Origin: Herminiimonas contaminans
Lineage (GTDB): Bacteria > Pseudomonadota > Gammaproteobacteria > Burkholderiales > Burkholderiaceae_D
Length of the DNA: 64,000 nt
Assembly: GCF_015645465.1 (NCBI RefSeq)
Contig: NZ_JADOEL010000001.1
Location: 124,001 to 188,000 of the forward strand
Reading direction: 5' to 3'
Part shown: positions 31,873 to 47,414 of the stretch, piece by piece
How positions within the stretch are numbered: the first letter of the stretch is position 1
Layout of the letters: every line of letters starts with the position of its first letter
Made by a program: the position numbers and the translations under genes
The notes under the pieces: generated by a model
The model's database searches: none
What the model was told of the DNA's origin: nothing
Seen by the model: the letters and a program-made list of their open reading frames with translations, nothing else

Positions 31873-32913
31873 TCAGGACATGTGCATGGCAGGCACAGCA
31901 TCCTCGAACTCATGCTTTTTTTTATTGATAGCGACATCCAGATCTGGGCGCTGTATGCCGTTCTTTGCCGCGACGACTTCAGCCATGATGCTGATGGCAA
32001 TTTCTGACGGCGTTTTGCTGCCTATATAAATACCGACCGGGCCATGCAGGCGCGCCAGGTTTTCACCGCTGACCTCGAAATGCTCGGCCAGACGTTCCCG
32101 ACGTGCCGTATTGTTGCGCCGGCTGCCTATGGCACCGACATAGAATGCCGGACTGACCAGCGCTTCCATCAGGGCCAGGTCATCCAGCTTGGGATCATGC
32201 GTCAGTGCGATGACGCAGGTGCGCTGATCCGGCTTCATCTCGTACACTGCGTCGTCCGGCATACCTTCCACGAAGCGCACATTCGGCACACTCCAGCCAC
32301 GCCTGTACTCATCACGTGGATCACATACCGTCACGGAGAAACCGCTAAAGGCTGCCATCGTCGCCAGGTACTCGGTTAATTGTCCGGCACCGATCAGCAA
32401 CATGCGGTAACCCGGCCCGAACACGGCTTTCATCGCAAACTTGGTAACCGCCAATGCCGATGGCCTGTCAGCCGGAGCCAGCGCCACCGCACCGCTGACC
32501 AGATCCACCGTCCGCTGTACCAGTGCACCAGCTTCCAGCTGGCTGACCAGTTGTTCCAGTGCATGCGCATCCGGATTGAACTCCAGCAGTAATTCCAGCG
32601 TACCGCCACAAGGCAGGCCGAAGCGATGAGCTTCATCCGCTGACAAGCCATAGCAATCCCACTGCGGCCGCCGCGCCTGCCCTTTTTCATTGAGAAAGGC
32701 ATCCTTGTTCGTGAAGCGCGTGATCAAGTCATCCTCGATACAGCCACCAGAGACCGACCCGACCACACTGCCCGTCTCGCACAATGCCATCAGCGAACCG
32801 ACCGGACGTGGTGAGGCACCCCAGGTTCGCGTCACGGTTGCCAGCACTGCGTGCTTGCCTTGCAAACGCCAGTCGCGCAAGGTGCGCAATACGATCAGGT
32901 CGAGGTTCTCCAT
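31873..32913 (-). CDS. XdhC/CoxI family molybdoenzyme maturation factor
   Basis: A 346-residue protein with an N-terminal XdhC_CoxI domain (AVLATVTRTWGASPRPVGS, GSVSGGCIEDDL) and a C-terminal Rossmann domain (MLLIGAGQLTEYLATMA, VIALTHDPKLDDLAL, YVGAIGSRRN). XdhC proteins bind molybdenum cofactor, help its sulfuration and insert it into xanthine-dehydrogenase-type enzymes. It closes the leftward operon whose first genes encode such an enzyme. ATG 32913 has better spacing from AAGGAG than the adjacent ATG 32916. Confidence 0.92.
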   Translation of the reverse strand: MENLDLIVLRTLRDWRLQGKHAVLATVTRTWGASPRPVGSLMALCETGSVVGSVSGGCIEDDLITRFTNKDAFLNEKGQARRPQWDCYGLSADEAHRFGLPCGGTLELLLEFNPDAHALEQLVSQLEAGALVQRTVDLVSGAVALAPADRPSALAVTKFAMKAVFGPGYRMLLIGAGQLTEYLATMAAFSGFSVTVCDPRDEYRRGWSVPNVRFVEGMPDDAVYEMKPDQRTCVIALTHDPKLDDLALMEALVSPAFYVGAIGSRRNNTARRERLAEHFEVSGENLARLHGPVGIYIGSKTPSEIAISIMAEVVAAKNGIQRPDLDVAINKKKHEFEDAVPAMHMS

Positions 32914-32922
32914 CATGACTCC

Positions 32923-33627
32923 TTAACCGCCCAGGTAGGCGCGACGAATTTCAGGATTGGACCGCATTTCAGCCGACGTACCTTGTGTCACGATATGACC
33001 GTTCTCCAACAGATAAGCCCGATCACACATGGCTAGCGCAGCGTAGGCATTCTGTTCGACGATGAGCACCGTCGTACCCTCCTTGTTGATTTCCTGGATC
33101 AGGCTGAAGATTTGCTCAACGATATTCGGTGCAAGTCCGAGTGATGGTTCGTCAAACATGACCAGCCGTGGCCGCGACATCAGCGCACGTGCGATTGCCA
33201 GCATTTGCTGCTCGCCGCCGGACAAGGTGCCCGCCACTTGCTGTATGCGCTCGCGCAAACGCGGGAACTTGTCGAACATGCGCTCCATATCGTCACGCAC
33301 CTGCGGCTTGTCCTTGCGTCGGTATGCGCCCATCTCCATGTTTTCGCGCACTGTCAGTTGCGGGAAGACGCGTCGCCCTTCCGGGCAATGCGAGATACCG
33401 TGATCGATGACTTCGGCCGGTGACGCACCAGAAACCAGATGACCATCCATGCGTATGCTGCCATGCGCCAGCGGCTCCAGTCCGTTAATGGCGCGTAGCG
33501 TGGTCGACTTGCCCGCGCCATTGGCACCAATCAGGGTAACGATCTCGCCTTCGTTGACTTCCAGCGAGATTTTGTTGATGCCGGTAGTGGCACCATAGCG
33601 CACGGTGATTTCTTCAATTTTCAGCAT
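32923..33627 (-). CDS. livF: Branched-chain-amino-acid-type ABC transporter ATP-binding protein LivF
   Basis: About 234 residues. ABC signature LSGGEQQMLAIARALM, Walker A GANGAGKSTTL, Walker B RLVMFDEPSLGLAP. It is the second ATPase of the HAAT-family importer encoded here. Its start overlaps the end of livG by 14 bases. Substrate is likely the compound degraded by the neighbouring catabolic genes, not an amino acid; this is inference from the operon. Confidence 0.93.
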   Translation of the reverse strand: MLKIEEITVRYGATTGINKISLEVNEGEIVTLIGANGAGKSTTLRAINGLEPLAHGSIRMDGHLVSGASPAEVIDHGISHCPEGRRVFPQLTVRENMEMGAYRRKDKPQVRDDMERMFDKFPRLRERIQQVAGTLSGGEQQMLAIARALMSRPRLVMFDEPSLGLAPNIVEQIFSLIQEINKEGTTVLIVEQNAYAALAMCDRAYLLENGHIVTQGTSAEMRSNPEIRRAYLGG

Positions 33628-34420
33628 GTTCAATCCCCGATCCAAGATAGGCGCGAATGACTTCAGGGTCATTCTGAATTTCAGATGGCGAACCGGTGGC
33701 GATCAGGCGGCCGTAATTCAGCACCACAATGTGATCCGAGATAGACATCACCATGTGCATGTCATGCTCGACCAGTAGCACGGTGACGCCGCCCTGCCCT
33801 ATGCGCCTGACCATTTCCTTGAAGGCTTCGGTTTCCGATGGGTTCAGCCCCGCTGCCGGTTCATCCAGCAGCAGCACTTTCGGCTTGGCTGCCAGTGCAA
33901 GTCCGACACCTAACAAGCGCTGCTCGCCGTATGACAGATTGGAAGCCAGTGTATTTGCCCGCGCACTAAGGCCGAGGAAGGCGATCAGGTCATGTGCCTG
34001 CGCCTGCAAGTCTGCTTCTTCCTTACGGAATTTATGCGTACGCAACAGCGATTGCAACACGCCACACTCACCCTTCAGATGCAGCGCAGTGAGTATGTTC
34101 TCCGCCACGGTACACGCTGAAAAAATGCTGGTACGCTGAAAACTGCGCACCAGCCCAAGCGCGGAGATTTGCTCAGGGGCCATGCCGGTAATGTCATGGC
34201 CAAATAATTTAACGCGTCCCGAAGTCGGTTTCATGTATCCGGAGATCACGTTGTAGGTAGTGGTTTTGCCCGCGCCGTTCGGACCGATCAGGCTGACGAT
34301 CTTGCCAGCCGGTACCGCGAAGCTGGCATTGTCGACTGCTGTCAATCCGGCGATGCGCATGGTCACGCCTTCCAGCTCGAGTGCTGGTATCTGCTTGTTC
34401 TGGGTCTGAGTAGAATTCAT
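33614..34420 (-). CDS. livG: Branched-chain-amino-acid-type ABC transporter ATP-binding protein LivG
   Basis: 268 residues. Walker A GPNGAGKTTTYNVI, ABC signature LSYGEQRLLGVGLALA, Walker B KVLLLDEPAAGLNPSE, and the LivG-type C-terminal extension ending in an AYLGSG motif. Start overlaps the livM stop (ATGA). Confidence 0.93.
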   Translation of the reverse strand: MNSTQTQNKQIPALELEGVTMRIAGLTAVDNASFAVPAGKIVSLIGPNGAGKTTTYNVISGYMKPTSGRVKLFGHDITGMAPEQISALGLVRSFQRTSIFSACTVAENILTALHLKGECGVLQSLLRTHKFRKEEADLQAQAHDLIAFLGLSARANTLASNLSYGEQRLLGVGLALAAKPKVLLLDEPAAGLNPSETEAFKEMVRRIGQGGVTVLLVEHDMHMVMSISDHIVVLNYGRLIATGSPSEIQNDPEVIRAYLGSGIEHAEN

Positions 34421-35463
34421 GCTGTTTTCCTCCGCACGACAGGTGTTTGCTCTTGCACAGGGCGGGATGAATAGCGACGCAGCAGGTTACCGGCTGACGG
34501 CACCACACCTTTAGGCATGAAGACCAGGACTGCAATCATCAGCACGCCATAAATCATCCACTGGATTTCCGGCGACACGACGCCACGCAGCACTTCCGGC
34601 AGCAAACCAAACAACAAGCCACCAACTACCGGCCCTGCCAGCGTGCCCTTGCCACCGACGATGACCATGATGACCATCATGATGGTGAACATAAACATGA
34701 AGACATCCGGATCAATAATCCGCACCGTGTGTGCATACAGTCCACCAGCTGCACCGGCGATACCCGCAGCGAAGATAGTGGCAATGCCCAGATAGTGGGT
34801 CACACGGATGCCGACCGAACGCGCCAGCACTTCATTCTCACGCAAGGCGATCATGGCGCGACCGATACGGCTATGCACCAGCGCCGCAACCAGCAAGTAA
34901 GCAACGACGGCCACTGCCAATACCAGCCAGTAGGTCGACAACTTGGTCGAGAGATCGATCACCCCCTCACCCGGCACCCACATGGTCAGAGCCGGGATAT
35001 TGTTCAGGGCCATCGGTCCTTCGGTCAGGTCTACCCAGTTGAGTGCCACCATACGCATCACTTGCGCAAAGCTGATGGTGACAATCACAAAGTAAGCACC
35101 GCGTACGCGGAATGCCAGCTTGCCGAGCAACCAGCCTGCGACCGCAGCGAATGCAATACCGCAAACAAAGGCCAGCCATACCGGCTTCGGCGTCACCACC
35201 AGCGGCTCCGTCATACCCCACAACGTGACATCAAAGCCCAGTGACAGTAGCGAGGTGGTGTAAGCCCCCAGGCCGAAGAACGCCACATGACCGAGGCTCA
35301 GTTGCCCGGTATAACCGAGCAGCAGATTCAGGCTGATCGCGGCGATGATAAAAATGCCGACCGAAGCCACCACCGACAGCAGGTATGGATCCGGCCAGAT
35401 CAAAGGCAACAGCGCCAGCGCCAGGACGGAAATGCAAAAAGTCATTTTCTTTTTCATGATCAA
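34417..35463 (-). CDS. livM: Branched-chain-amino-acid-type ABC transporter permease LivM
   Basis: 348 residues, about ten membrane helices. Typical LivM features: SLNLLLGYTGQLSLGHVAFFGLGAY near residue 45, LRENEVLARSVGI, and AGGLYAHTVRIIDP. Overlaps livH by four bases and livG by four. Confidence 0.92.
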   Translation of the reverse strand: MIMKKKMTFCISVLALALLPLIWPDPYLLSVVASVGIFIIAAISLNLLLGYTGQLSLGHVAFFGLGAYTTSLLSLGFDVTLWGMTEPLVVTPKPVWLAFVCGIAFAAVAGWLLGKLAFRVRGAYFVIVTISFAQVMRMVALNWVDLTEGPMALNNIPALTMWVPGEGVIDLSTKLSTYWLVLAVAVVAYLLVAALVHSRIGRAMIALRENEVLARSVGIRVTHYLGIATIFAAGIAGAAGGLYAHTVRIIDPDVFMFMFTIMMVIMVIVGGKGTLAGPVVGGLLFGLLPEVLRGVVSPEIQWMIYGVLMIAVLVFMPKGVVPSAGNLLRRYSSRPVQEQTPVVRRKTA

Positions 35464-36332
35464 CCCACCCTTTCCCTGATGGTGAACAAACCTTGTGGAC
35501 GGAAAATCATGACCGCAAGAATGACGAGGAAGCCCAATGCATCGCGATAAGCGGTAGAGATGTATCCGGCACCGAACTCTTCAACGATGGCGAGGATGAA
35601 GCCACCCAGTGCAGCACCCGGCAGATTGCCCAGTCCGCCCAGGATGACAATCGCAAACGCTTTCAGGCTGGCGAGATCACCCATGGTTGGCGTCACCACA
35701 AACACTGGTGCCAGCAAGGCACCCGCTACCGAAGCCAGACACGAACCCAGCGCAAAGGTCAGCGTGTAGATGTGCGATACATTCACACCGACGATTTTGG
35801 CTGCATCCTTATCCTGGAAGGTGGCGCGCATCGCCAGCCCCAGACGCGAACGTTCGATCAGCAGATAGAAGATCACCAGCAATGCAACAGCCGTCACCAG
35901 GACAAACAGACGGATAGGCGATACCGAGATCGCACCCCAGACTATCGGCTCCTGGCTGAATGGAGATGGCACCGATTTAGCGACACCGCCCCACATCAGC
36001 AACTCCGCGTTCTGCATAATGATCATCACGCCTATCATGATCAGCATGACTTCATCGATCGCCTTCAGGTCACGACGACGCAGCAGGAAGTATTCGATGG
36101 CAGTGCCGAACAGGAAGCCGACGATGGCAGCGACCAGCAAGGAAGCAAAGAAATTCATGCCGAACATGGCGACCACGCCATAAGCGACATACGCACCGAG
36201 TGCATAAAGCTCACCATGCGCAAAGTTCACCACCCGCATGATCCCGAAGATCAGGGTCAGGCCGATCCCGAGCAAGGCGTACGTCGAGCCAAGCACAAGC
36301 GCGTTTAACGTATGCTGTAATAATTGGTCCAT
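35460..36332 (-). CDS. livH: Branched-chain-amino-acid-type ABC transporter permease LivH
   Basis: 290 residues, eight or so helices. Starts MDQLLQHTLNALVLGSTYAL, followed by GIMRVVNFAHGELYALGAY; both are LivH hallmarks. The ORF opens ten codons earlier, but ATG 36332 fits the family. A 125-base gap separates it from the binding-protein gene. Confidence 0.92.
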   Translation of the reverse strand: MDQLLQHTLNALVLGSTYALLGIGLTLIFGIMRVVNFAHGELYALGAYVAYGVVAMFGMNFFASLLVAAIVGFLFGTAIEYFLLRRRDLKAIDEVMLIMIGVMIIMQNAELLMWGGVAKSVPSPFSQEPIVWGAISVSPIRLFVLVTAVALLVIFYLLIERSRLGLAMRATFQDKDAAKIVGVNVSHIYTLTFALGSCLASVAGALLAPVFVVTPTMGDLASLKAFAIVILGGLGNLPGAALGGFILAIVEEFGAGYISTAYRDALGFLVILAVMIFRPQGLFTIRERVG

Positions 36333-36457
36333 AGGTATCCTTCGGCAGGGGGTGTTCAGCAAGCTGTCACGCCCACCCCGCGTATAGGTGGAAAATAAGC
36401 GGGCCGCTACACTCAGCCCGTACGCTAGGTCTTATTCGACGGCGTTGTTCACGCTCG

Positions 36458-37615
36458 TCATTTAACCGATACCTGGCCGTCCTTCAGTTCGACCACATAG
36501 ACGTTCGGTGCCGCCTGCCCGCTTTCCTTACCGGCAGGACCTTCCTTGCCGAAGGCGATATCGCCATTCGCGCCCTGTACTTGTACCTTCCACAGCGCAT
36601 CACGGATGGCTGCAGGTTCTGCCTTGCCCGAAACACGGATCGCTTCGGCGATCGTCAGGATCGCGTCGAAACCACGGAAGCCCTCGGTCTGGCCAGCGAA
36701 TTCCAGGCCACGCGCTTTCCAGCCATCCATGAATGCCTTGGCAATCGCAGGATGTTTCGCACGCTCTGGTGCCCACGGGGCAAAGAACAGGAGATGCTGG
36801 CTGACATAACCTTTAGGGCCAGGTGTCTTCAGCAGTGGCTCAGGAAAGGAACCGCCGGTCGTGATGATGCGTTGTGGCAGACGCTGTTCACCAGCCTGGC
36901 GGATCGCCAGTGTCAGTTGTTCGATGCCCGACGTCACGATGACGGTATCGGAACCGCTACCTTTCAATGCAGCGAGCTGTGCCGACAGATCGGTCATATC
37001 AGGTGTCATGGTTTCGGTACGACCGATGGCGATACCTTTGGCTTCCAGCATTTTTTTGAATTCAACCGCGGCACCCAGGCCCCAGTCATTATTCACAGCG
37101 AGGAAATCAACTTTCTTGATAGCCGGGCTGTAGCTGTCGATCAGCTTGGCAAAGGCCTTGGCTTCCATCGCCGAAGTAGGACTGGTGCGGAATACCCAAG
37201 GATTGCCTGCAGTGGTGATCTTGCTCGATGACGCAGTCTCTACCACCATAGGGACGCCGTATTCCATCAGCTTAGGCATGACGGCGAGTGTGAAGGTGGA
37301 GCTCCATGCGCCCATCAGGACCGGCACTTTGTCTTTCAAAATCAGTTTCTCTACCGAGTTGACTGCTTCACGCGGATTGGATTTGTTGTCCTCGATCACC
37401 AGCTGCAGCTTTTTGCCCAGCACGCCACCGTTCTGGTTGACGTAGTCGGCCGCAATGCGTGCGCCGTTGGTGACGTAGGTGCCGGAAGCCGCGACCGGGC
37501 CGGTCAGTGGTTCGCTGACGCCGATCTTGATGGTTTCCTGCGCATAGGCAGATGTAGCGGTGAGCATGGCGAAGCCAAGAGAGGCGGCCCATGATTTTGA
37601 AGTTTGCCAGTTCAT
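36458..37615 (-). CDS. ABC transporter periplasmic substrate-binding protein (LivK-type)
   Basis: 385 residues. A signal peptide ends near TSAYAQ, then IKIGVSEPLTGPVAASG. The two-lobed LivJ/urea-binding-type fold is seen in VAADYVNQNGGVLGKKLQLVIEDNKSNP and FLAVNNDWGLGAAVEF. It is the solute receptor for livHMGF. Placing it between the molybdenum hydroxylase genes and the permease suggests the ligand is the hydroxylase substrate. Ligand identity is not visible. Confidence 0.92.
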   Translation of the reverse strand: MNWQTSKSWAASLGFAMLTATSAYAQETIKIGVSEPLTGPVAASGTYVTNGARIAADYVNQNGGVLGKKLQLVIEDNKSNPREAVNSVEKLILKDKVPVLMGAWSSTFTLAVMPKLMEYGVPMVVETASSSKITTAGNPWVFRTSPTSAMEAKAFAKLIDSYSPAIKKVDFLAVNNDWGLGAAVEFKKMLEAKGIAIGRTETMTPDMTDLSAQLAALKGSGSDTVIVTSGIEQLTLAIRQAGEQRLPQRIITTGGSFPEPLLKTPGPKGYVSQHLLFFAPWAPERAKHPAIAKAFMDGWKARGLEFAGQTEGFRGFDAILTIAEAIRVSGKAEPAAIRDALWKVQVQGANGDIAFGKEGPAGKESGQAAPNVYVVELKDGQVSVK

Positions 37616-37685
37616 AGTAAATATCCTTAGTGTCCGAAGTGAGTGAATATCTGATTGATCAGTTCAGAGTGTGGGTTCAGTGCGA

Positions 37686-38300
37686 TTAATTGCGGCGACT
37701 GGAAAACAAACCAGCCAGCCACGCTTTAAGTAGGGTCCAGAGGTCTATCGACGACGTATCTCTTTGCGCTGCGCGCGGTTTGGCCGGAGCGGCGGCCGCC
37801 ATATCGGCGACCCCGCTGCCGTGTACGTCGCTCGCGCTTACCGGTTGTGGCAGGCGCGCCTGCAGGTTCTCGGCGAATTGTTTGGTCAGCTGTTCAGCCA
37901 GTGCGCGGACTATGCCTTCGCGGCTGAATTGTGCGAGTGAGCCGGTGATGCTGTGATCTACCTTGACCTGCACATCGGTGCCACCGCCTGCGACTGAGCT
38001 GACGGTAAAACTGGCTTCGCCTTTGACGCGGCTATTGCTGCGCGCATCGACTGCCGTGCCGATGATGGCGCCGCTGTTCGATGCTTCATCCAGATTCAGG
38101 CGTCCCTGTCCGGCAAAGCTGGCCGCGATGGGACCGAGCTTGACCTTGAACAACAAAGGTATCGATCCTTCTTCGGTCGCTGTCGCCTCTTTATTAATAG
38201 ATGCACCGGGCAGGCAATCGACCAGCAATTCGATATCGTGGAAAGCTTTCCACACGGAGTCGGTCGGTGCTGCGATATGAAATGATTGTTCAAGCTGCAT
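37686..38300 (-). CDS. CoxG-like SRPBCC protein
   Basis: A 204-residue protein. Residues 1-145 are an SRPBCC (START-like) domain typical of CO dehydrogenase subunit G (FHDIELLVDCLPGA, FAGQGRLNLDEA, QVKVDHSITGSLAQFSREG). An Ala/Pro linker leads to a hydrophobic amphipathic C-terminus (LWTLLKAWLAGLFSSRRN) that could tether it to the membrane. CoxG-type proteins recruit a molybdenum hydroxylase to the membrane. Start 38300 overlaps the coxS-like stop. Confidence 0.87.
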   Translation of the reverse strand: MQLEQSFHIAAPTDSVWKAFHDIELLVDCLPGASINKEATATEEGSIPLLFKVKLGPIAASFAGQGRLNLDEASNSGAIIGTAVDARSNSRVKGEASFTVSSVAGGGTDVQVKVDHSITGSLAQFSREGIVRALAEQLTKQFAENLQARLPQPVSASDVHGSGVADMAAAAPAKPRAAQRDTSSIDLWTLLKAWLAGLFSSRRN

Positions 38301-38826
38301 GAGTGATCTCCTGAGATGAAACTGTTGAGTCGCGTTCGCGCAGCACACGCTGGATCGCGCGCACAATGCCGAAGTAACCGGTGCAGCGGCACAGATTGCC
38401 CGCCAATTCTTCACGTATCCTGTCCTCATCGGCTTCAGGCAAACGCAATACGATGTCGCGTGCTGTCATCAACATGCCGGGCGTGCAATAACCGCACTGC
38501 AATGCATGCTCGGCGGAGAACGCCGCGCGCAGCCTGGCCATTAAAGGGTCATCATCAAACGCTTCCAGCGTCCGTATCTGCTTGCCTTCAAAGCGTTTCG
38601 CCGATTGCAGGCAACTACGTTGTGGTGCGCCATCCACTTCGATGGTGCAGGCGCCACATACACCCTGCTCGCAACCGACGTGCGTCGCGGTCAGGCCGCA
38701 GTGGTCACGCAAGGCATCAGCCAGATGAGTCCGTGGTTGCAGGGTCAGCTGGTAGCAACGGTCGTTGATAGTCAGCTCCACGGCGGTGGTTTCCACCTCC
38801 GGAAATGCTATTGGTAATGCGCTCAT
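38290..38826 (-). CDS. Molybdenum hydroxylase small subunit, 2x[2Fe-2S] (CoxS-like)
   Basis: 178 residues. The plant-type [2Fe-2S] cluster is bound by Cys52, Cys57, Cys60 and Cys72 (GCEQGVCGACTIEVDG). The second cluster by Cys111, Cys114, Cys146 and Cys148 (QCGYCTPGM, NLCRCTGY). It moves electrons between molybdopterin and FAD subunits. Overlaps coxM-like and coxG-like neighbours. Confidence 0.95.
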   Translation of the reverse strand: MSALPIAFPEVETTAVELTINDRCYQLTLQPRTHLADALRDHCGLTATHVGCEQGVCGACTIEVDGAPQRSCLQSAKRFEGKQIRTLEAFDDDPLMARLRAAFSAEHALQCGYCTPGMLMTARDIVLRLPEADEDRIREELAGNLCRCTGYFGIVRAIQRVLRERDSTVSSQEITHAA

Positions 38827-39641
38827 CGTGTTTTCCCCATATCCAATGCCACTAGCCTCAACATCTCCATCAAGGTGTGGCGACGATCAAGTTCCAGCTC
38901 GGGCGCAGCCTGCCGCACGATCTGTTCACGTACTGCGCCTTGCAGCAATTCAGTCATCAGGCCCGCTCTTTCGACCACGAACGGCGCACCGTCCAATGCA
39001 CCGATCACTACACGTTCGGTACCGTCGCTGCTGTCACGGATGCCTGAAGTCATCGCATGCGACAGTTCACCGGTTTTGCGGCATAACTTGCGATACGACC
39101 ACTGCATGCTGGTAGTGCGTTTAGGTACGCTGACTGCGACCAGGATTTCACCGTCGACCAGTTGTGTTTCGTAAGCGGAGCTCATGAAATCGCGTGCCGC
39201 GATATCGCGCTGACCGGACGGGCCAAGCACGTGCAGCGTCGCGCCCAGCAAAGGCATGGTGCTAATCCAGTCAGCGGCCGGATCGGCGTGGCACAGGCTG
39301 CCACCGAGGGTGCCGCGATTGCGGACTGCACGGTAGGCGATGCCGCGTGCGACGTAAGGCATCAGGCCCTGGCTAGGGTCAGGTACGCGTTGGTCTTCGA
39401 TCGCGGCATGTGTGGTCATCGCACCGAAACGTATCGCGTCGCCGGTATCGGTGACGGCGCGCAGCGATTCAAACGCATCGAGATCCAGCAAGGATTCTGG
39501 TTGTGCCAGACGCAGATTCAGCATCGCACCGAGGGACTGGCAACCTGCGACTGGTTTGCTACCCCAGCCGTTTTCAGCCAGCTGCGCAGATGCCTGCGCG
39601 AGGTCGTCGGCCTTGATCAGGCTATAGGCGGAAGGTTTCAT
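38823..39641 (-). CDS. Molybdenum hydroxylase FAD-binding subunit (CoxM-like)
   Basis: 272 residues with the FAD-binding fold of xanthine dehydrogenase type. Typical FAD pyrophosphate loop AGCQSLGAMLNLR and the second motif RNRGTLGGSLCHADPAADW are intact. Start ATG 39641 overlaps the large-subunit stop (ATGA). The ORF opens 20 codons upstream, in what is coxL-like coding sequence. Confidence 0.94.
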   Translation of the reverse strand: MKPSAYSLIKADDLAQASAQLAENGWGSKPVAGCQSLGAMLNLRLAQPESLLDLDAFESLRAVTDTGDAIRFGAMTTHAAIEDQRVPDPSQGLMPYVARGIAYRAVRNRGTLGGSLCHADPAADWISTMPLLGATLHVLGPSGQRDIAARDFMSSAYETQLVDGEILVAVSVPKRTTSMQWSYRKLCRKTGELSHAMTSGIRDSSDGTERVVIGALDGAPFVVERAGLMTELLQGAVREQIVRQAAPELELDRRHTLMEMLRLVALDMGKTR

Positions 39642-42037
39642 GCTTGTGCTCCTTGCGCTGCGGCGATGGCTTCCAATACGCGGCGCGGATTGGCCGGGCA
39701 CTGCAATAGTTCAGCACCCAGCTCATACAGTGCATCGTTGATGCCGTTGATGATGGCGGCCGGTGGTGCAATCGCACCGCCCTCGCCTATGCCTTTTTGT
39801 CCGTACTTGCTGTTCGGACTTGGGGTTTCCATATGCAGCATCTTGAGCGGTGGCATTTCACCGGCACCCGGCAACAGGTAATCCTGCAGCGTCGATGCCA
39901 GCGGCTGGCCTTCGCTATCGAATGGCATTTCTTCGTACAAGGCAGTACCTATGCCCTGCGCCAGGCCACCATATATCTGGCCTTCGACGATCATCGGGTT
40001 CAGCAACACGCCGCCATCTTCACAAATCACGTAATCGAGGATGGCGACATGACCGGTCGCGGTGTCGACTTCCACCAGACAGGTATGGCAGGCATAGCTA
40101 AAGGTACCGGCGTCCGGCATCATCTTGTAACCGGCTACCACTTCGAGCCCACCCGGATCGACTGCACCGACCGGTAGTTTTTGCGGAGCGCGATACCAGG
40201 TGTGTGCGATCTCGGATAAAGGCAAACGCTTAACGCTGTCCTGCACACCGACCGTGCCGTCTTTCAGGGTGATGAGGCTGGCGTCGATATCGAGCAAGAC
40301 ACCGGCCATGACCTTGACGCGTTCAGCCAGTTGTTCACAAGCAGTACCGACTGCACCACCAGCCATGACCGCGCAACGCGAGCCCCAGGTACCGGTCGAG
40401 TAAGGTGTCATGCCGGTATCGCCGTGGATTACGCGAACCTTGGCGATATCGATGCCGAGTACTGTATGGGCAACCTGCGCCATCGAGGTTTCCAGTCCCT
40501 GACCATGCGAATGCACACCGATACGTAGTTCAAGTATGCCGTCAGGCGTAAAGCGTGCCGTGCATTGCTCGTAGCCCGGCACCATAGGGATGCCCCAACC
40601 GTGATAAACCGAAGTGCCGTGCGCACCTTGCTCACAGAACACCGCCATGCCGAGACCAAGACGCTTCTGCGCCGGATCTGTGCCATTCGCAGCATGTCTT
40701 TCCTTTTGGCGGGCGCGGCAACCATCCCAGTCGATCGCCTCGACCGCCTTATTCATGCAGGTCGTGTAATCGCCGGAGTCGAATAATTTGTTGGTGATAT
40801 TTGCGTAAGGCATAGCCGATGCAGGCACCAGACTCTTGGCACGCAATACATGCGGCTCTATACCGAGCTCACGCGCTGCAATATCCAGCATGACTTCGAG
40901 CGCAAAACAGACACCAGTGCGGGCGACGCCACGATACGGCAGGATAGGAGGTTTGTTGGTCGCAGCAGAACGGGTGCGGCAAACAAAGCTATCCATTACA
41001 TAAGGGCCAGGCAGGATGGAGCCGATCTGTGCCGCTTCTAGGCAGGCGCTGAATGGATACGATGAGTAAGCACCGGAATCGACGACTGCATCACAACGTA
41101 TGCCGGCCAGACGTCCGTCCCTGGTGACGTCGACGCTAAGGTCATAGCCGTGTTCACGGCAGTTGGCATTCGCAGTTAGTTGTTCACGTCTGTCTTCCAG
41201 CCAGCGGATAGGACGTTTCAATTGTATCGCCAGCCAGGCGCAGCAGATTTCTTCCGGCAGCAAGATACCCTTATAACCAAAGCCGCCACCGACATCCGGT
41301 GAGATGACGCGTATTTGTCCTTCGTCCAGACCCAGGCATTCAGCCAGGCCGGTGCGATTGATATGCGGCACTTGCGCGGCCGAGTACATGATCAGCTGGT
41401 CGACACGGGTATCCCAGAAGCACAGCACGGCGCGACCTTCCATTGGTGCCATGCATTGGCGCGCCATGCGCAACTTGCGGCTGACACTGTGCACTGCCTC
41501 ATCGGTAGCACTGACGCGTTTATCTATATTGGTTTCGGCAAAGACGTTTTCGCTCCAGTCGTCATGTACGCGTGTATCGCTTTCCAGCGTGCCGTACATA
41601 TCTGCCATCACCGGCAGCTCCTGGTAATCCACGAACACACTCGCTGCGATATCTTCCGCCTGTGCGCGATCCGGCGCGATGCAGGCTGCGACCAGTTCAC
41701 CGACGTGGCGTACTTTGTCTTGCGCAAGTGGATATTGTGCCGAGAGTTTGAAACCGGGCAATGAGGATGCCGCGACGATGGGACGCACACCAGTCATGTC
41801 TGCCATCGTGTAGACCAGATGCTCCACGCCTTGCGGCTTCTCGATTTGTCCGAGACGGGCATGCGCCACGGGTGAGCGTACGAATGCGACTTCGAGCATA
41901 TCCGGCATACGCATATCGCCGACATATTTGCCCTGACCCAATAAGAGTCGCTTGTCTTCCTTGCGCAGTACTTCGCGACCAATTCCTTGATCGGTACCGG
42001 CTTGCGTGAGCAGCTCGGGCATCACCAGATCATTCAT
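39638..42037 (-). CDS. Molybdenum hydroxylase large subunit (CoxL-like, not CO dehydrogenase form I)
   Basis: 799 residues of the xanthine dehydrogenase family. N-terminal GQGKYVGDM, cofactor-binding VSPDVGGGFGYKG, and the catalytic Glu in GQKGIGEGGAIAPP are visible. The active-site loop reads PYRGVARTG. Form I CO dehydrogenase has a Cys in this loop (AYxCSFR), so CO oxidation is unlikely. Substrate is probably an N-heterocycle or aldehyde, inferred from the catabolic neighbours. First gene of the leftward operon, with a MarR-type palindrome 65-80 bases upstream. ATG 42037 is the family start. Confidence 0.93.
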   Translation of the reverse strand: MNDLVMPELLTQAGTDQGIGREVLRKEDKRLLLGQGKYVGDMRMPDMLEVAFVRSPVAHARLGQIEKPQGVEHLVYTMADMTGVRPIVAASSLPGFKLSAQYPLAQDKVRHVGELVAACIAPDRAQAEDIAASVFVDYQELPVMADMYGTLESDTRVHDDWSENVFAETNIDKRVSATDEAVHSVSRKLRMARQCMAPMEGRAVLCFWDTRVDQLIMYSAAQVPHINRTGLAECLGLDEGQIRVISPDVGGGFGYKGILLPEEICCAWLAIQLKRPIRWLEDRREQLTANANCREHGYDLSVDVTRDGRLAGIRCDAVVDSGAYSSYPFSACLEAAQIGSILPGPYVMDSFVCRTRSAATNKPPILPYRGVARTGVCFALEVMLDIAARELGIEPHVLRAKSLVPASAMPYANITNKLFDSGDYTTCMNKAVEAIDWDGCRARQKERHAANGTDPAQKRLGLGMAVFCEQGAHGTSVYHGWGIPMVPGYEQCTARFTPDGILELRIGVHSHGQGLETSMAQVAHTVLGIDIAKVRVIHGDTGMTPYSTGTWGSRCAVMAGGAVGTACEQLAERVKVMAGVLLDIDASLITLKDGTVGVQDSVKRLPLSEIAHTWYRAPQKLPVGAVDPGGLEVVAGYKMMPDAGTFSYACHTCLVEVDTATGHVAILDYVICEDGGVLLNPMIVEGQIYGGLAQGIGTALYEEMPFDSEGQPLASTLQDYLLPGAGEMPPLKMLHMETPSPNSKYGQKGIGEGGAIAPPAAIINGINDALYELGAELLQCPANPRRVLEAIAAAQGAQA

Positions 42038-42101
42038 CGATATCTCCTGAACGTTGCCGGGAACTGAAATTAAATTCATATTCCCTGCATCTCCAATAAT
42101 T

Positions 42102-42117
42102 ATGTGGCATACCACAT
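42102..42117. promoter_or_regulatory. Palindromic operator 1 (MarR site candidate)
   Basis: ATGTGG-CATA-CCACAT, perfect 6-bp arms, 65 bases before the coxL-like start. Same arms as the sites at the divergent marR promoter. Confidence 0.75.
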
Positions 42118-42405: not shown

Positions 42406-42421
42406 ATGTGGTACAGCACAT
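42406..42421. promoter_or_regulatory. Palindromic operator 2 (MarR site candidate)
   Basis: ATGTGG-TACA-GCACAT, one mismatch in the arms, about 370 bases before the coxL-like start. Flanked by TTT and TTT A/T-rich tails like the other copies. Confidence 0.6.
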
Positions 42422-42718
42422 TTATTGGACTTTAATCAAGCAAGATTCTTGAATAAATACCGATATTTGCTGTTGTACATGAAAATCACGCGCTTTGCAT
42501 CAAATTGGAAAAAATTTGTTTCAAAAAGGTGCAACAACAACGACACTTGCGCACTACTTTGTATCTCTTCAAACTTTCAGTGAGCGACTAACTCGGTACA
42601 ACAACATGCTCACACTGCGATTACTCATGACGACAACAAACGTGAGTCATCATCTCAAAGCAAATGAGAAATTGCACGCTGCAGTGCAATGCAGCGCATT
42701 TTGAAAAATAGAAAAATA

Positions 42719-43234
42719 TTAACGGGCTTTGAGTAAAGGCACACGATCAGTGGCCTCCGATTCAACCAGTCGCACCATCAGCAATATAAACAGTTGACGT
42801 TCTTCCGGCGACAGATTCTCTATAGTGCGGTCATGCGCGCGCTGTACGGCAGGACGCATCTTCTTTACCAGCGCACGTCCCTTGCGCGACAGCTTGACGT
42901 ACTTCACACGCTTGTCGTGTTCAGACTGGCTGCGCACAATCAACTCACGCTGCTCCAGGCGTGGCAAGACTTCGGCCACACTGGTGCGCTCCAGTCCAAT
43001 ATGGTGCGCCAATGAATTCTGATCCAGTTCGCCGTACTCTTCCAGTGCAGTCAACAGGCTGTATTGCACAGGCGTGATGTTGTGTTCCAGCGTCTCTTCC
43101 GTGAACAAGGCACTATGGATCTGGTGCAGGCGGCGTATCAAAAACCCGGGACGGGTAAATAACAGGGAACGCGCCTGGACTGACTCCATATCGCTCATCA
43201 GAGAGGGAAAAGCTGCTTCTTCAATCTTATTCAT
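42719..43234 (-). CDS. MarR-family transcriptional regulator
   Basis: 171 residues. Winged-helix core with helix-turn-helix LDQNSLAHHIGLERTSVAEVLPRLEQRELIVR and the wing SEHDKRVKYVKLSRKGRAL. Helices at both ends form the usual dimer interface. Start ATG 43234 is chosen over 43279. It is transcribed divergently from the amidohydrolase operon; two near-perfect palindromes lie in the gap and two more before the coxL-like operon. It is therefore the likely repressor of both operons and of itself. The ligand is probably a pathway metabolite. Confidence 0.92.
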   Translation of the reverse strand: MNKIEEAAFPSLMSDMESVQARSLLFTRPGFLIRRLHQIHSALFTEETLEHNITPVQYSLLTALEEYGELDQNSLAHHIGLERTSVAEVLPRLEQRELIVRSQSEHDKRVKYVKLSRKGRALVKKMRPAVQRAHDRTIENLSPEERQLFILLMVRLVESEATDRVPLLKAR

Positions 43235-43330
43235 GAATGGTCGGTATATAAGGGAACAGGATGGAATCCGGTATGCCACAAATCAGGAGTATATGTGAAT
43301 CCACAACAAAAACGGCAATAAAAATATATC

Positions 43331-43354
43331 ATAAATGTGGTGCACCACATTTAT
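43331..43354. promoter_or_regulatory. Perfect 24-bp palindromic operator 3
   Basis: A perfect 24-bp palindrome with core ATGTGGTGCACCACAT (43335-43350) and ATAA/TTAT ends. It lies in the divergent marR/amidohydrolase promoter region, 97 bases from the marR start. Expected site of a dimeric MarR repressor. Confidence 0.88.
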
Positions 43355-43370
43355 TTAAAGTTGGCATAGA

Positions 43371-43390
43371 ATATGCGGTGCACCACATAT
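43371..43390. promoter_or_regulatory. Palindromic operator 4
   Basis: ATATGCGGTGCACCACATAT: 20 bp with a single mismatched pair. Located 22 bases before the amidohydrolase ATG, so binding would block the rightward promoter or its early transcript. Confidence 0.85.
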
Positions 43391-43412
43391 TATTTAACTT
43401 AAAGGAGTTGCC

Positions 43413-44678
43413 ATGAATCATATTCTTCTCAAGGGCGGCCGCGTCATTGATCCCAAGGCCAACCGCGATGGTGTATTCGATATATTGATCAAGGATGACG
43501 TCATAGCCGCAATCGATCGTGACATCACGCCTCCGGATAGTAAGACAACAGTAGTGGATTGCCGCGACAAACTGGTCACCCCAGGCCTGATCGATACGCA
43601 TGGCCATGTATACCAGGGCGTAACCGGTCGCTTCGGCCTCAATGCTGATATGTGCGGCGTGTATTCAGGTGTTACCACCATCGTCGACCAGGGTGGTGCC
43701 AGCTGCATTACCCTGCCCGGCTTCCGCCAATATGTGATCGAGCCATCGAAAACCCGCGTGCTCTCGTATATGTCGGCCTATCTGGTCGGTGGTCTGGAAG
43801 GACACTTCTATCCTGAGCTGTATCGCCCTGATTGCCTGGATGTAGAAGCAACCGTTACCGCCGCCAAAAAGAATAGCGACATCGTGCGCGGCCTGAAGGC
43901 ACACGCAGAAGTTGGCGGCTTTGCACGTTGGGGCGTCGATGTGATGCGCATCGCATCGCAGATCGGACGCGAAGCTGCACTGCCTGTCTATATACACTTT
44001 GGTCAACTGTGGCCGAAACCGGAGGACGGCGGCTCACCGGTCAATCCGGACAGCATCTTCAATCAGGTCGTCGATATGCTCAAACCCGGCGACATCCTGG
44101 CCCATCCGTTCAGCCGCCATCCGGGTGGCTTCGTCGAAGTCAACGGCTCCATCCACCCTATGGTGAAAGAAGCGATCGCGCGCGGCCTCAAGATAGACGT
44201 CGGCCACGGCTCGCACTTCAGCTTCAAAACCGCGCGCATCGTGCTCGACGCCGGCGTCATTCCGGATACCCTGGGCGCAGACATGCACGGTTACAACACC
44301 ATCGTGCCACCACCGGCTGGCACACCCAACTGGCATCCGGATGAAAGCGTGCACATCTTCAAGGGCAATGAACGTTTCAGCCTGGTCTCGGCGATGAGTA
44401 GCATGCTGGCCGTCGGCCTGCCACTCAATCATGTGGTGGCAATGGTCACCAGTAATGCCGCCAAACTGGCAGGCCTGGAAGATGAAATTGGCACCCTCAA
44501 AGTAGGTGGCGTAGCAGACGTCAGCGTGATGGAAGACCAGCGCGGCCGTTGGGCACTGCACGATAACGAAGGCACACAAGTCATCACTGACCGCATGCTC
44601 TTCCCTGTCTGCTGCTACCGCGCCGGTGAACGTTTTGACTCCAACGCGACCATACTTCCAGTCGCAAAGGCGGCATGA
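43413..44678 (+). CDS. Amidohydrolase/deacetylase-family metallohydrolase (COG3964 type)
   Basis: 421 residues, amidohydrolase superfamily TIM barrel. Metal ligands in the first motif GLIDTHGHVYQG; a candidate carboxylated Lys in VRGLKAHAEVGG; later metal His in LAHPFSRHPGG and DVGHGSHFSF; catalytic Asp in LGADMHGYN. The N- and C-terminal beta segments (VIDPKANRDGVFDILIKDD, LKVGGVADVSVME) are typical. Such enzymes hydrolyse cyclic amides, N-acetyl groups or related bonds. It has a strong ribosome site AAAGGAG and operator 4 just upstream. In this operon a ring-opening role is my inference. Confidence 0.9.
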   Translation: MNHILLKGGRVIDPKANRDGVFDILIKDDVIAAIDRDITPPDSKTTVVDCRDKLVTPGLIDTHGHVYQGVTGRFGLNADMCGVYSGVTTIVDQGGASCITLPGFRQYVIEPSKTRVLSYMSAYLVGGLEGHFYPELYRPDCLDVEATVTAAKKNSDIVRGLKAHAEVGGFARWGVDVMRIASQIGREAALPVYIHFGQLWPKPEDGGSPVNPDSIFNQVVDMLKPGDILAHPFSRHPGGFVEVNGSIHPMVKEAIARGLKIDVGHGSHFSFKTARIVLDAGVIPDTLGADMHGYNTIVPPPAGTPNWHPDESVHIFKGNERFSLVSAMSSMLAVGLPLNHVVAMVTSNAAKLAGLEDEIGTLKVGGVADVSVMEDQRGRWALHDNEGTQVITDRMLFPVCCYRAGERFDSNATILPVAKAA

Positions 44679-45058
44679 TGGATATCAACCACGCCCCTAC
44701 CCTGCAAGAAGTCGAGCTGGCCTTCGATGCCTACGAACAGGCTTTAGTCGGTAACGATGTCGCCAAACTCGACGAACTGTTCTGGAACAACGACGCCACG
44801 CTGCGTTATGGCGCAACGGAAAACCTGGTCGGCTACGATGCCATCCGTGACTTCCGTTCGCAACGTCCGGCCGCCAACCTGGCACGCACGGTCACCAGCC
44901 GACATGTCACCACCTTCGGTACAGACTGCGCAGTCGCCAACATCACCTTCAGCAAAAATGGTGATACACGCATAGGTCGGCAAACCCAGACCTGGGTGAG
45001 ATTCCCGGATGGCTGGCATGTTGTCGCTGCCCACGTGAGCTGGATGGACGTCAAATGA
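44675..45058 (+). CDS. AtzH/HpxZ-like (DUF3225) protein
   Basis: 127 residues, NTF2-like fold. It closely follows HpxZ/AtzH proteins: ALVGNDVAKLDELFW, RYGATENLVGYDAIRDFRSQRP, ARTVTSRHVTTFG and GRQTQTWVRFPDGWHVVAAHVSWM. AtzH is reported to act on 1,3-dicarboxyurea in cyanurate degradation, and HpxZ lies in oxalurate/purine catabolic clusters. ATG overlaps the amidohydrolase stop (ATGA). Its reaction here is unknown. Confidence 0.87.
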   Translation: MMDINHAPTLQEVELAFDAYEQALVGNDVAKLDELFWNNDATLRYGATENLVGYDAIRDFRSQRPAANLARTVTSRHVTTFGTDCAVANITFSKNGDTRIGRQTQTWVRFPDGWHVVAAHVSWMDVK

Positions 45059-46263
45059 ACATCCCGCTCATGAGTCAGCTACAACCGGATACCGGCGGTG
45101 CCTTCCTGACGGAGGCCTATGGCTATGCATTACAGGCGCATCGTCCAGTCAGCAATAATCTGGAAGGCATACGCTTTGCCGTCAAGGATGTATTCGACAT
45201 CGCAGGTACGCGCACCGGTGCAGGTAATCCGGTCTGGTTCTCCGACCATGAGGTTGCACATAAACATGCAACCGCAGTCGAACGCCTATTGTCCGGCGGT
45301 GCCACCTTCGTCGGTAAAACACTAACCGACGAACTCACCTACAGCCTCGCCGGTATCAATGTGCACTACGGCGTGCCACGCAACCCGGCCAGCCCGGATC
45401 GCCTACCCGGAGGTTCGTCCTCCGGCTCAGTCGCCGCAGTTGCAGCTGGCCTGGCCGATGTCGCACTAGGTACCGATTGCGGTGGCTCGGTGCGGCTACC
45501 GGCAAGCTACTGCGGGGTGTGGGGCATGCGACCTACACATGGCCGACTATCCGGACATGGTTGCCTGGTGCTGGCGCATAGCTTTGATACAGTCGGCTGG
45601 TTCGCCCGTAATCTGCAACACCTGGAGCAAACTTTCTGCGCATTGGCGCATGCAGAAACCACCGACACGGAACCAGTCTTCCTCGCACTCAACGATACTG
45701 TCATCAACAATCTGCTAGACCCAGCCGTGCTGCAGGCTTTCAATGAGTTGAAAAGCGAGCAGGCAGATTTTGTGCCGGTAACGAGCGCGCTGGAACTGAG
45801 TAACTGGGCTGCCGCCTTCCGTACCTTGCAAGCGTCGGAAGCATGGATGGAACACGGCGTCTGGGTATCACGCCACTCAGATGAGCTGGGCGAAGATATC
45901 CGTCGCCGCTTCGACATTGCTTCCGGCGTCACTGCCGGGCAAGTCCGTAGCGCGCAACAAATCAGGGTAGCCGCCATCCGTGCGCTGAATCACATCCTCG
46001 ATGACCAGCATAAAGTCATCGTCATCCCGACCGTACCGACACCTGCGCCACTACTCGCCGCCGATGCTGCTGCAGTCGACGATATACGCATGCGCTCGCA
46101 GCAACTGCTATGCATCGCGGGGCTGGCCGGCTTGCCGCAACTCAGCATGCCGTGGATACAGGTCAACGGCGCACCGGTAGGACTATCCATCATCGGTGGC
46201 CGTGGTTGCGATGAAATCGTTCTGCATGCAGCGCAACAGTTACAGGCTCGTATTGCAAGTTGA
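45055..46263 (+). CDS. Amidase-signature hydrolase, AMI1-like
   Basis: 402 residues with the complete Ser-cisSer-Lys triad: Lys44 (RFAVKDVFDIAG), Ser121 (PGGSSSGSVAA) and Ser145 (GTDCGGSVRLPA). The blocks GVPRNPASPDRLPGGSSSGS and SFDTVGWFARN strongly recall the short (about 425-residue) amidases such as plant AMI1 (indole-3-acetamide hydrolase). Cleaves a linear amide, with ammonia release likely. ATG overlaps the stop of the AtzH-like gene. Distinct from AtzE/HpxY, which are about 460 residues and need a small AtzG/HpxX subunit; none is seen here. Confidence 0.9.
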   Translation: MNIPLMSQLQPDTGGAFLTEAYGYALQAHRPVSNNLEGIRFAVKDVFDIAGTRTGAGNPVWFSDHEVAHKHATAVERLLSGGATFVGKTLTDELTYSLAGINVHYGVPRNPASPDRLPGGSSSGSVAAVAAGLADVALGTDCGGSVRLPASYCGVWGMRPTHGRLSGHGCLVLAHSFDTVGWFARNLQHLEQTFCALAHAETTDTEPVFLALNDTVINNLLDPAVLQAFNELKSEQADFVPVTSALELSNWAAAFRTLQASEAWMEHGVWVSRHSDELGEDIRRRFDIASGVTAGQVRSAQQIRVAAIRALNHILDDQHKVIVIPTVPTPAPLLAADAAAVDDIRMRSQQLLCIAGLAGLPQLSMPWIQVNGAPVGLSIIGGRGCDEIVLHAAQQLQARIAS

Positions 46264-46298
46264 ACCTATTACGAATTGAACCCTCACGGAGAACAGCC

Positions 46299-47414
46299 AT
46301 GACTACCAGCAAGTTCGATGAAGAAATCGCACAAATAGCCAGCCGCTACGACGGCATCCGCTGGACCGATGTGCAGCTGCGTACACAGGCATTGCCTGAA
46401 CTTTCAGCCGATGTACTGCTGCATGCTGGCCCGCCGTTGACAGGTGTACTACCCGCACCGATCCGGCAGGCGGCGATTGAAGCCATACTGTTCGAAGGGC
46501 TAGCTGACGATCATGGTGCCGCAGCAGAACTGCTGTCACAAGGCAAGGTCAGGCTGTTACCGGCACAGGATCACGGCCTGGTCACGCCATTGGCACAAGT
46601 GGTCTCAGCCTCCATGCCGCTATTCGTCGTCAGCAGCAATGACAGCGCACGCTATGCACCACTGGTCGAAGGACCAGCGCCTGCACTGCGCTTCGGCAAG
46701 CCGGTAGCCAGTACGCGTGCGCAACTACAACTGCTGTCGCAATTCGGCATGCATGTATTAAAGCCAGTCGTGCAAGCGCATCCACCCGCGCTGTCGCAAG
46801 CTATCCACTACGCCTTGCAAGGCGGCGAAGAATGTCATGCACTTACTGCACGTGCCAATGCGGCACTGGCAGCACAACTAGATGCGCTGCATGCGCGTGA
46901 CCGACAAGTCATACTCGCCAACCCCGGCTTCGTACTGCCGCTGCTGATGGCGGCGTGCTCGCTACGTCTTGAACAAACCGGTCACATCGTCGCCGCCGGT
47001 GGCAACGGCCTCGCCTTCGGTTATCGCTTGCGTGATACATCAACCTGGCAAACCATACCCGCTACCCCACCACAAGGCACACGCTTTGCCGGACATGAGC
47101 TCACGGCAGCATTGGGAGCGATAGGCGACAGCGCCGTCATCGACTTCTCTGGACTGGGCGCGCAAGCGCTGGCTTACGTGCCCAGCCTGGCGCGGGATTG
47201 GGCGCAGTACCTGCCGGAAGATTTGCACATGCACAGATCACAAGTCGTGAACGCGCGCAGCGGCATCGTCGATTTGAAAAGCATACTGAGCAATGACTGC
47301 GCGCCCATGGTCAATCTGGCGATACTGGATCACGCAGCGGAAGCGGGCTTGATAGGACGAGGGGTGTTTGAGGTGTCTACGGAGTTATTTGCGGATCCGA
47401 GTGCATCGATTTAG
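46299..47414 (+). CDS. DUF1116 (YlbE/AllG-like) protein
   Basis: 371 residues. Matches DUF1116 in order: LLHAGPPLTGVLPAPIRQAAIEAILFEG, LLPAQDHGLVTPLAQVVSASMPLFVV, LQGGEECHALTARA, GDSAVIDFSGLGAQAL and the end GLIGRGVFEVSTELF. AllG, a member, is a subunit of oxamate carbamoyltransferase in allantoin fermentation; its AllF and AllH partners are not present here. ATG 46299 has GGAG upstream and is preferred over 46260, which lies in the amidase stop overlap. Last gene of the rightward operon; the reaction is unknown and may concern oxamate/carbamoyl chemistry. Confidence 0.8.
   Translation: MTTSKFDEEIAQIASRYDGIRWTDVQLRTQALPELSADVLLHAGPPLTGVLPAPIRQAAIEAILFEGLADDHGAAAELLSQGKVRLLPAQDHGLVTPLAQVVSASMPLFVVSSNDSARYAPLVEGPAPALRFGKPVASTRAQLQLLSQFGMHVLKPVVQAHPPALSQAIHYALQGGEECHALTARANAALAAQLDALHARDRQVILANPGFVLPLLMAACSLRLEQTGHIVAAGGNGLAFGYRLRDTSTWQTIPATPPQGTRFAGHELTAALGAIGDSAVIDFSGLGAQALAYVPSLARDWAQYLPEDLHMHRSQVVNARSGIVDLKSILSNDCAPMVNLAILDHAAEAGLIGRGVFEVSTELFADPSASI

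Follow-up and report, generated by a model that had tools for sequence, protein, structure and literature searches.

A MarR-linked gene module of Herminiimonas contaminans and other Proteobacteria with a putative role in breakdown of a nitrogen-containing ring compound

Genes located at positions 31,873 to 47,414 of a 64,000-nt stretch of the Herminiimonas contaminans genome (RefSeq contig NZ_JADOEL010000001.1, positions 124,001 to 188,000; the genome has 4.04 Mb in 56 contigs, and the whole stretch is called the window below) resemble parts of several described systems. One set of ten genes encodes XdhC, a Liv-type ATP-binding cassette (ABC) importer and a molybdenum (Mo) hydroxylase with a CoxG partner; a set of four encodes an amidohydrolase, an AtzH-like (HpxZ) protein, an amidase and a stand-alone DUF1116 protein; marR encodes a regulator. 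All genes named in an earlier sequence-only reading of the locus were confirmed to be present.

The HpxWXYZ oxalurate branch of purine breakdown in Klebsiella has in common with the window an HpxZ equivalog and an amidase-signature enzyme, as well as a GGT-fold protein present in sister clusters. HpxW is reported to be an oxamate amidohydrolase (PMC5270733). The window differs from this branch in having an amidase of another group, no gene between amidase and hpxZ for an HpxX/AtzG partner and no GGT in its operons, while a Mo hydroxylase, a putative ring-opening amidohydrolase and DUF1116 are added. AllG, whose family includes the window DUF1116 protein, is one of three AllFGH proteins of the E. 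coli oxamate transcarbamylase; AllF and AllH, the other two, were found in none of the 80 cluster loci described below, and a candidate AllFGH-type operon is located elsewhere in the same genome (L018; labels beginning with L, G and C denote our loci, genomes and contigs). With the AtzDGEHF cyanuric acid operon the window shares an AtzH homologue with two catalytic residues, an AtzE-superfamily amidase and, presumably, ring opening before deamination. In cyanuric acid breakdown, AtzE and then AtzH are reported to act on a ureide (PMC6219798). The putative ring opener of the window, however, belongs to the amidohydrolase superfamily rather than to AtzD, and an oxidation step would be expected first; no equivalog or family match to AtzD or AtzF was found among window proteins scanned. 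Finally, enzymes of the CoxMSL type (CO dehydrogenase, quinoline 2-oxidoreductase) have the same three-subunit layout, XdhC/CoxG accessories and catalytic Glu, whereas the window CoxL falls in its own PYRGVAR-loop group, under the cut-offs of all equivalog models listed.

The gene set is a new combination of known families, and it is widespread. Full-text literature searches found no description of a set of this kind in the papers covered; the earlier statement that no named pathway with this exact set was known stands within that literature. A paper on vitamin B2 (PMC12746152) includes Mo hydroxylase, Rieske and amidase steps, with no mention of HpxZ or DUF1116 in the part covered. We lean, with modest confidence, towards a MarR-controlled catabolic regulon that would take a small N-heterocycle or cyclic ureide through an oxalurate-like ureide; the gene set, conservation of the module, common operator-like sites and conserved active-site residues, all read from sequence, are described below.

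Conservation of the module

One genome per species (84,980 species) was scanned with an amidohydrolase alignment, which produced 447 relatives. Wider-locus counts refer to the best 80 of these (60–99% identity) with 10 kb flanks; the 61 loci with full flanks were counted separately. The counts are descriptive, as related genomes are not independent, and the family profiles used were built largely from the same loci. CoxL was found in 64 of the 80 loci (50 of the 61 with full flanks), CoxM in 62 (50), CoxS in 61 (50), CoxG in 49 (43), MarR in 62 (51), DUF1116 in 61 (54), AtzH in 30 (26), amidase in 27 (24), GGT in 14 (14) and a Rieske oxygenase in 8 (6). The amidohydrolase and coxL open reading frames (ORFs) were separated by a median of 10 bases. 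Given these counts, the core consists of the Mo hydroxylase, the amidohydrolase and DUF1116, accompanied by MarR. A second unit is made up of amidase and AtzH: 25 loci have both, 5 have AtzH alone, 2 have amidase alone and 48 have neither. XdhC was not detected in the 80 loci, which says little, because in the window 10.5 kb separate xdhC from the amidohydrolase and flanks of 10 kb would not reach it. The supposition that the two operons belong together was thus borne out by genome comparison, the Mo hydroxylase accompanying the amidohydrolase at the CoxL frequencies given above.

Among 12 other genomes listed for the same genus (13 with our own), four have the gene set. All 15 genes were found in three of the four and xdhC in all four; in the fourth, Oxalicibacterium, the four remaining genes were seen at locus L073. 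The amidohydrolase of Herminiimonas sp. KBW02 is 99% identical to the window copy. groEL is located near the DUF1116 end in the window, G140 and G080; different genes adjoin this end in G172 and G150, which indicates that the block stayed together in different surroundings. A genome of the genus without the cluster (G183) has a short DUF1116 fragment beside groEL (L019:1901-2179), as would be left by loss of the cluster from that site.

In other families the same parts occur in other orders (16 loci inspected, several of which were of AllG type or too short to be judged). The set is more than a chance assembly, since it recurs with shuffled order in Beta-, Gamma- and Alphaproteobacteria. An amidohydrolase relative was present in 18 plasmid records, seven of which were inspected; six of the seven have a Mo hydroxylase beside it, and no module genes were found on a Massilia plasmid carrying the most distant relative (39%). 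The importer varies among loci (Liv-type, polar amino-acid-type or NMT1-type), CoxS and CoxG are fused on the Methylobacterium (L157) and Pacificitalea (L158) plasmids, and existing annotation in Caballeronia and Azospirillum replicons already names the AtzH-like gene hpxZ. The A. ramasamyi stretch is cut inside the amidase. Divergent to the module on a Geminicoccaceae plasmid are genes for a thiamine-pyrophosphate enzyme and for two luciferase-like flavin monooxygenases (L156:7363-11661); luciferase-like genes are also seen in L074, L075 and L085.

Operator-like sites and the putative regulon

A putative operator, TGTGGTNNACCACA, occurs twice upstream of each window operon. With the search pattern WTGTGGTNNACCACAW, the window has four sites with at most one mismatch, every one within the two regulatory regions. 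Sites with up to two mismatches were detected in 41 of 79 amidohydrolase upstream regions (one locus was too short), compared with 0.8 expected from shuffles and 0.7 from random stretches of the same loci. Over whole loci we counted 102 sites versus 36 predicted by a simple Markov model; 82 are situated not more than 400 bases upstream of a module gene. At least one site is present in 50 of the 80 loci, namely in 47 of 62 with MarR versus 3 of 18 without it.

At one mismatch or fewer, the five genomes of the genus with the cluster have 8, 5, 6, 5 and 5 sites genome-wide; of these, 4, 3, 4, 4 and 3 belong to the cluster, and 1, 1, 1, 1 and 2 precede a porin, with or without an NMT1-type importer. 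The corresponding genome-wide numbers in the eight genomes without the cluster are 0, 0, 0, 1, 0, 0, 0 and 0. In our own genome a 1-mismatch and a 2-mismatch site, 140 bases apart on contig C2, lie in the gap that separates a porin gene from a divergent ORF of the glyoxalase family, and a site pair is likewise present upstream of the porin in G150. In G140, G172 and G080 the sites precede genes for an NMT1-type binding protein and an ATPase-type protein, then the porin, with one extra ORF between importer genes and porin in G140 and G172. The NMT1-type protein was found in three of the five genomes with the cluster and in none of the eight without; porin relatives also occur in four of those eight, none with a nearby 1-mismatch site.

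The claim that both operons form one regulon is supported: sharing a putative operator upstream of each, they appear to make up a single MarR-linked regulon, in which MarR probably acts as a repressor. The sites elsewhere suggest that entry through the outer membrane belongs to the regulon too, as does a second importer in some relatives. Three more 1-mismatch sites in our own genome (C4:247765, C13:17786, C18:14945) have no clear pathway link; the C13 site is ∼220 bases before an ABC-exporter-type gene.

Catalytic proteins, the proposed pathway and its rivals

The Mo hydroxylase has the make-up of the xanthine oxidase family, with Mo, flavin adenine dinucleotide (FAD) and 2[2Fe-2S] subunits and the catalytic Glu, which is found in 65 of 65 alignment rows. 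Its YRGVAR loop corresponds to residues 394-399 of the coxL ORF, and the six columns are as in the window in 63–65 of 65 rows. A VanA-type Rieske oxygenase with reductase was detected in 8 of the 80 loci, none of them with CoxL; 64 loci have CoxL only and 8 have neither. Best solved relatives of the L127 Rieske protein are SxtT and SxtDIOX, then NdmA. The step shared by CoxL and Rieske loci would be C-H hydroxylation near a ring nitrogen. Oxygenases of the iron/2-oxoglutarate type also occur beside the module (DIOX_N in 8 and PhyH in 17 of the 80 loci, by clustering; e.g. L080:7398-8621 and L105:18361-19413) and perhaps provide extra entry reactions.

The hydrolytic enzymes look intact as well, judged by conserved active-site residues. 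The metal-site-type residues H63, H65, K162, H195, H231 and D290 of the amidohydrolase are each kept in 80 of 81 rows, and the amidase triad K44-S122-S145 in 28 of 28. The allophanate hydrolase model scored 155 bits on the amidase (cut-off 511). On the AtzH-like protein the AtzH-like domain scored 187.6 bits; Y20 and R44 align with AtzH Tyr22 and Arg46 (numbering derived by a single constant shift of 22 along the 6bjt chain), and 30 of 31 rows keep both, with one gap. Tyr22 and Arg46 are reported to be required for catalysis by AtzH (PMC6219798).

The DUF1116 protein shares invariant residues with AllG-type rows. Its structure model (predicted local distance difference test, pLDDT, 93.4) had a single PDB match at E≤0.001, 3clq, which is itself a DUF1116 relative; with this as the sole significant match, the fold gives no enzyme class. 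In seven of the 80 loci (Pseudomonas, Stutzerimonas and Amphritea records) DUF1116 and AtzH/HpxZ are encoded in one ORF; five of the seven were aligned, and Pfam places AllG at 91-300 and the AtzH-like domain at 403-525 in L115. The DUF1116 relative in G150 has one TGA within a match to residues 4-382, and its uninterrupted ORF begins at the position of residue 14, for which reason the window gene may start at ATG 46299 rather than TTG 46260. Elsewhere in our own genome a separate operon encodes AllG-, AllF-like and AllH-family proteins (L018:9358-13224), and its DUF1116 protein is ∼25-28% identical to that of the window.

GGT-fold proteins encoded at 14 of the 80 loci are represented here by that of L116, the sole one tested, with best solved relative 5hft (373 and 287 bits for two chains; the next scored 279). 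We take 5hft to be Klebsiella HpxW, an oxamate amidohydrolase. The window operons have no GGT family match, and a 59% relative of the L116 protein is encoded elsewhere in our own genome, on a contig with no operator-like site at one mismatch or fewer; in G194 the HpxW-like relative is split into two pieces. Replacement of DUF1116 by GGT in Pseudomonas was ruled out: DUF1116 is fused to AtzH there and GGT is additional.

An oxalurate-like intermediate is the most economical reading, because HpxZ, the AllG family, the HpxW-like GGT and the AtzE/AtzH sequence meet in it. In the proposed pathway a small polar N-heterocycle or cyclic ureide would enter via the co-regulated porin encoded elsewhere and be carried across the inner membrane by the Liv-type importer. 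With XdhC for maturation and CoxG as a helper, CoxLMS would then hydroxylate a ring carbon with oxygen from water (in some relatives the Rieske oxygenase would do this instead), and opening of the oxidised ring by the metal-dependent amidohydrolase would yield an oxalurate-like ureide. The amidase may take off the terminal NH2 of the ureide, with the HpxZ/AtzH-type protein decarboxylating the resulting N-carboxy compound, like AtzE then AtzH in cyanuric acid breakdown; DUF1116, probably bound to HpxZ, would act on the same ureide or its oxamate-like product and may bind a ligand similar to that of AllG. Predicted end products are ammonium, CO2 and an oxalate-like acid, and MarR would leave its sites in response to the substrate or an intermediate. 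How the ring is converted to oxalurate, which ring it is and what DUF1116 does are what we infer here. A bolder proposal, which we hold as tentative and rather doubtful, is that DUF1116 and HpxZ make up a new ureide- or oxamate-cleaving enzyme acting without AllF and AllH in an undescribed aerobic pathway, where different oxygenases feed one amidohydrolase and converge on oxalurate.

Several points weigh against the proposed pathway. The survey covers 80 of 447 relatives, and many of these loci are without amidase and AtzH; in 33 of the 80 DUF1116 occurs without AtzH, and 30 have no operator site at two mismatches or fewer. In the five genomes with the cluster, the reversed control pattern gave 1, 3, 0, 1 and 0 sites; a lone site is therefore not significant. 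The CoxL protein of L124, counted among the 64, is just 34% identical to that of the window. The Fisher probability for the separation of CoxL and Rieske loci, 4e-7, overstates it, as related rows are not independent, and other Rieske-type proteins annotated in three CoxL cluster stretches (L155, L157, L158) limit the exclusion to the VanA-type Rieske family. In Methylobacterium and the Geminicoccaceae bacterium an alpha/beta hydrolase follows the amidohydrolase; Azospirillum brasilense has GGT, amidase and hpxZ with no DUF1116 in the stretch, which ends at hpxZ. The amidase scored 204–212 bits with AtzE models, below the cut-offs of 426–461, and no gene is situated between the overlapping AtzH-like and amidase ORFs, where no AtzG profile search was made and small ORFs were not examined.

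The negative result for AllF and AllH in the 80 cluster loci (tblastn with the genome's own AllF- and AllH-like proteins) belongs with these points: five loci with AllG-type DUF1116 served as controls, including the one from which the query came, and AllF was found in five of them and AllH in four. The E. coli role of AllG therefore cannot be carried over to the window, and carbamoyl transfer is not established; no activity is known for DUF1116 proteins without AllF and AllH. The scheme proposed earlier, leading from a presumed imidazole/hydantoin-like ring through an oxalurate-like ureide to oxamate and carbamoyl steps, is accordingly retained in part: the HpxZ score, the HpxW-like GGT and the DUF1116-HpxZ fusion speak indirectly for the ureide, while the later steps lose their ground with AllF and AllH. 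Supply of an HpxW-like GGT in trans was rejected, 57-61% relatives being present in genomes of the genus both with and without the cluster (eight of eight without). Oxalyl-CoA decarboxylase was likewise rejected as a marker of the oxalate end (8 of 12 cluster-bearing versus 10 of 28 other genomes); it had matches in all 13 genomes of the genus, with the cluster or not (two partial pieces on separate contigs in G194), and none in four cluster-bearing genomes of other families.

Other substrates would use the same enzyme families. In a barbiturate-type pyrimidine route, which we consider unlikely, the Mo hydroxylase would form a barbiturate-like ring, the amidohydrolase would convert it to a ureidomalonate-like acid and the amidase would cut off urea. 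This order fits the uracil-barbiturate-ureidomalonate sequence, and three relatives have an NMT1/THI5-type importer under the operator; however, no AtzD/barbiturase-family match was found among window proteins scanned, and HpxZ, the AllG family and the HpxW-like GGT indicate two-carbon rather than malonyl ureides. An aromatic N-heterocycle of the pyridine, quinoline or pyrazine type, hydroxylated at the position adjacent to N and then processed by amide hydrolysis with no oxalurate intermediate, deserves equally little credence. Such a route leaves HpxZ and DUF1116 without a role and lacks a ring-cleaving dioxygenase among window proteins scanned, although the best solved relative of CoxL by sequence is quinoline 2-oxidoreductase (455 bits). 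The Azospirillum brasilense cluster is adjoined by annotated genes like those of the lower nicotinate pathway (L159:21144-25797), which would fit an aromatic substrate but have their own importer and TetR-type regulator.

Uptake and degradation of rings derived from hypoxanthine, xanthine or allantoin, i.e. a branch of purine breakdown, seems slightly less probable still. XdhC, Mo hydroxylase, HpxZ and AllG families are all known from purine breakdown, and a nucleoside hydrolase adjoins the cluster in Tatumella; against this, the amidohydrolase is far below the AllB cut-off (47 versus 358 bits), CoxL is below those of XdhA models (351–367 versus 780–916 bits), and the two operons have no urate oxidase family match. 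It is very improbable that the cox genes specify CO dehydrogenase or aldehyde oxidase activity and adjoin the hydrolase genes by coincidence: CoxL did score 440–517 bits with CO dehydrogenase models, but the cut-offs are 950–991, its loop is PYRGVAR and not the cysteine loop of CO dehydrogenase, and it is found near the amidohydrolase in the large majority of loci at the short median gap given above.

Gene layout and meaning

The coordinates are collected in Table 1. The plus-strand operon comprises four ORFs with a 4-base overlap at each junction. The sequence-only reading had placed two divergent operons around marR; the gene set and the operons stand, whereas marR runs in the same direction as the cox/liv operon, with ∼600 bases between it and the coxL ORF, and diverges from the amidohydrolase operon alone (spacing 133 bases). 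ORF starts of coxG, coxM and livF are probably too far upstream, since each of them runs more than 50 bases into a neighbouring ORF.

Table 1. Genes and operator-like sites of the module (window coordinates unless a locus or contig label is given)
Feature	Position	Strand	Score or remark
xdhC/coxI-type maturation factor for Mo hydroxylase	31873..32916	-	Pfam XdhC_C 129.8 bits, XdhC_CoxI 64.2
livF, ABC ATPase	32923..33672	-	ABC_tran 111.8 bits; start probably downstream
livG, ABC ATPase	33614..34420	-	ABC_tran 98.8, BCA_ABC_TP_C 45.6 bits
livM, permease	34417..35463	-	BPD_transp_2 149.3 bits
livH, permease	35460..36362	-	BPD_transp_2 162.9 bits
livK, periplasmic binding protein	36458..37615	-	Peripla_BP_6 208.8 bits
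coxG, SRPBCC partner of Mo hydroxylase	37686..38429	-	COXG 49.6 bits; true start probably inside ORF
coxS, 2x[2Fe-2S] subunit	38290..38826	-	Fer2_2 87.8 bits
coxM, FAD subunit	38823..39701	-	FAD_binding_5 133.2 bits; start probably downstream
coxL, molybdopterin subunit, PYRGVAR loop and catalytic Glu	39638..42115	-	MoCoBD_2 252.3 bits
marR-family regulator	42719..43279	-	MarR 51.8 bits
Amidohydrolase-superfamily metallohydrolase (PRK09237 group), putative ring opener	43413..44678	+	NF006689 423 bits, cut-off 371
AtzH-like/HpxZ (DUF3225) protein	44675..45058	+	NF033625 HpxZ 181.7 bits, cut-off 135
Amidase-signature hydrolase, AtzE/GatA superfamily, PRK08310 group	45055..46263	+	NF006169 522 bits, cut-off 391
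Stand-alone DUF1116 (AllG-family) protein	46260..47414	+	Pfam AllG 94.5 bits, cut-off 27; start possibly 46299
Operator-like site ATGTGGCATACCACAT	42102..42117	.	1 mismatch; start of coxL ORF, upstream of likely true start
Operator-like site ATGTGGTACAGCACAT	42406..42421	.	1 mismatch; coxL-marR gap
Operator-like site ATGTGGTGCACCACAT	43335..43350	.	0 mismatches; core of perfect 24-base palindrome 43331-43354
Operator-like site ATGCGGTGCACCACAT	43373..43388	.	1 mismatch; marR-amidohydrolase gap, near copy of palindrome
Porin gene with operator-like upstream region	L162:11146-12321; own genome C2:451145-452600		two sites upstream

Beyond the module, a choloylglycine-hydrolase-family protein is encoded at window positions 30653-31723, adjoining the xdhC end of the cluster, and an inverse-autotransporter beta-domain protein at 48490-50151. 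A gene for a PgaA-barrel protein and a large ORF (25476-27566) are located side by side at 25476-30082.

The module ties DUF1116/AllG, HpxZ/AtzH and PRK09237 amidohydrolases, families that are poorly understood or dependent on partners, into one unit across many Proteobacteria. The inducer could be sought by way of the putative operator, and the fusion of DUF1116 with HpxZ is a single protein to assay. If the proposed pathway is true, it would represent a widespread means, missed by current annotation, of obtaining nitrogen from a ring compound.

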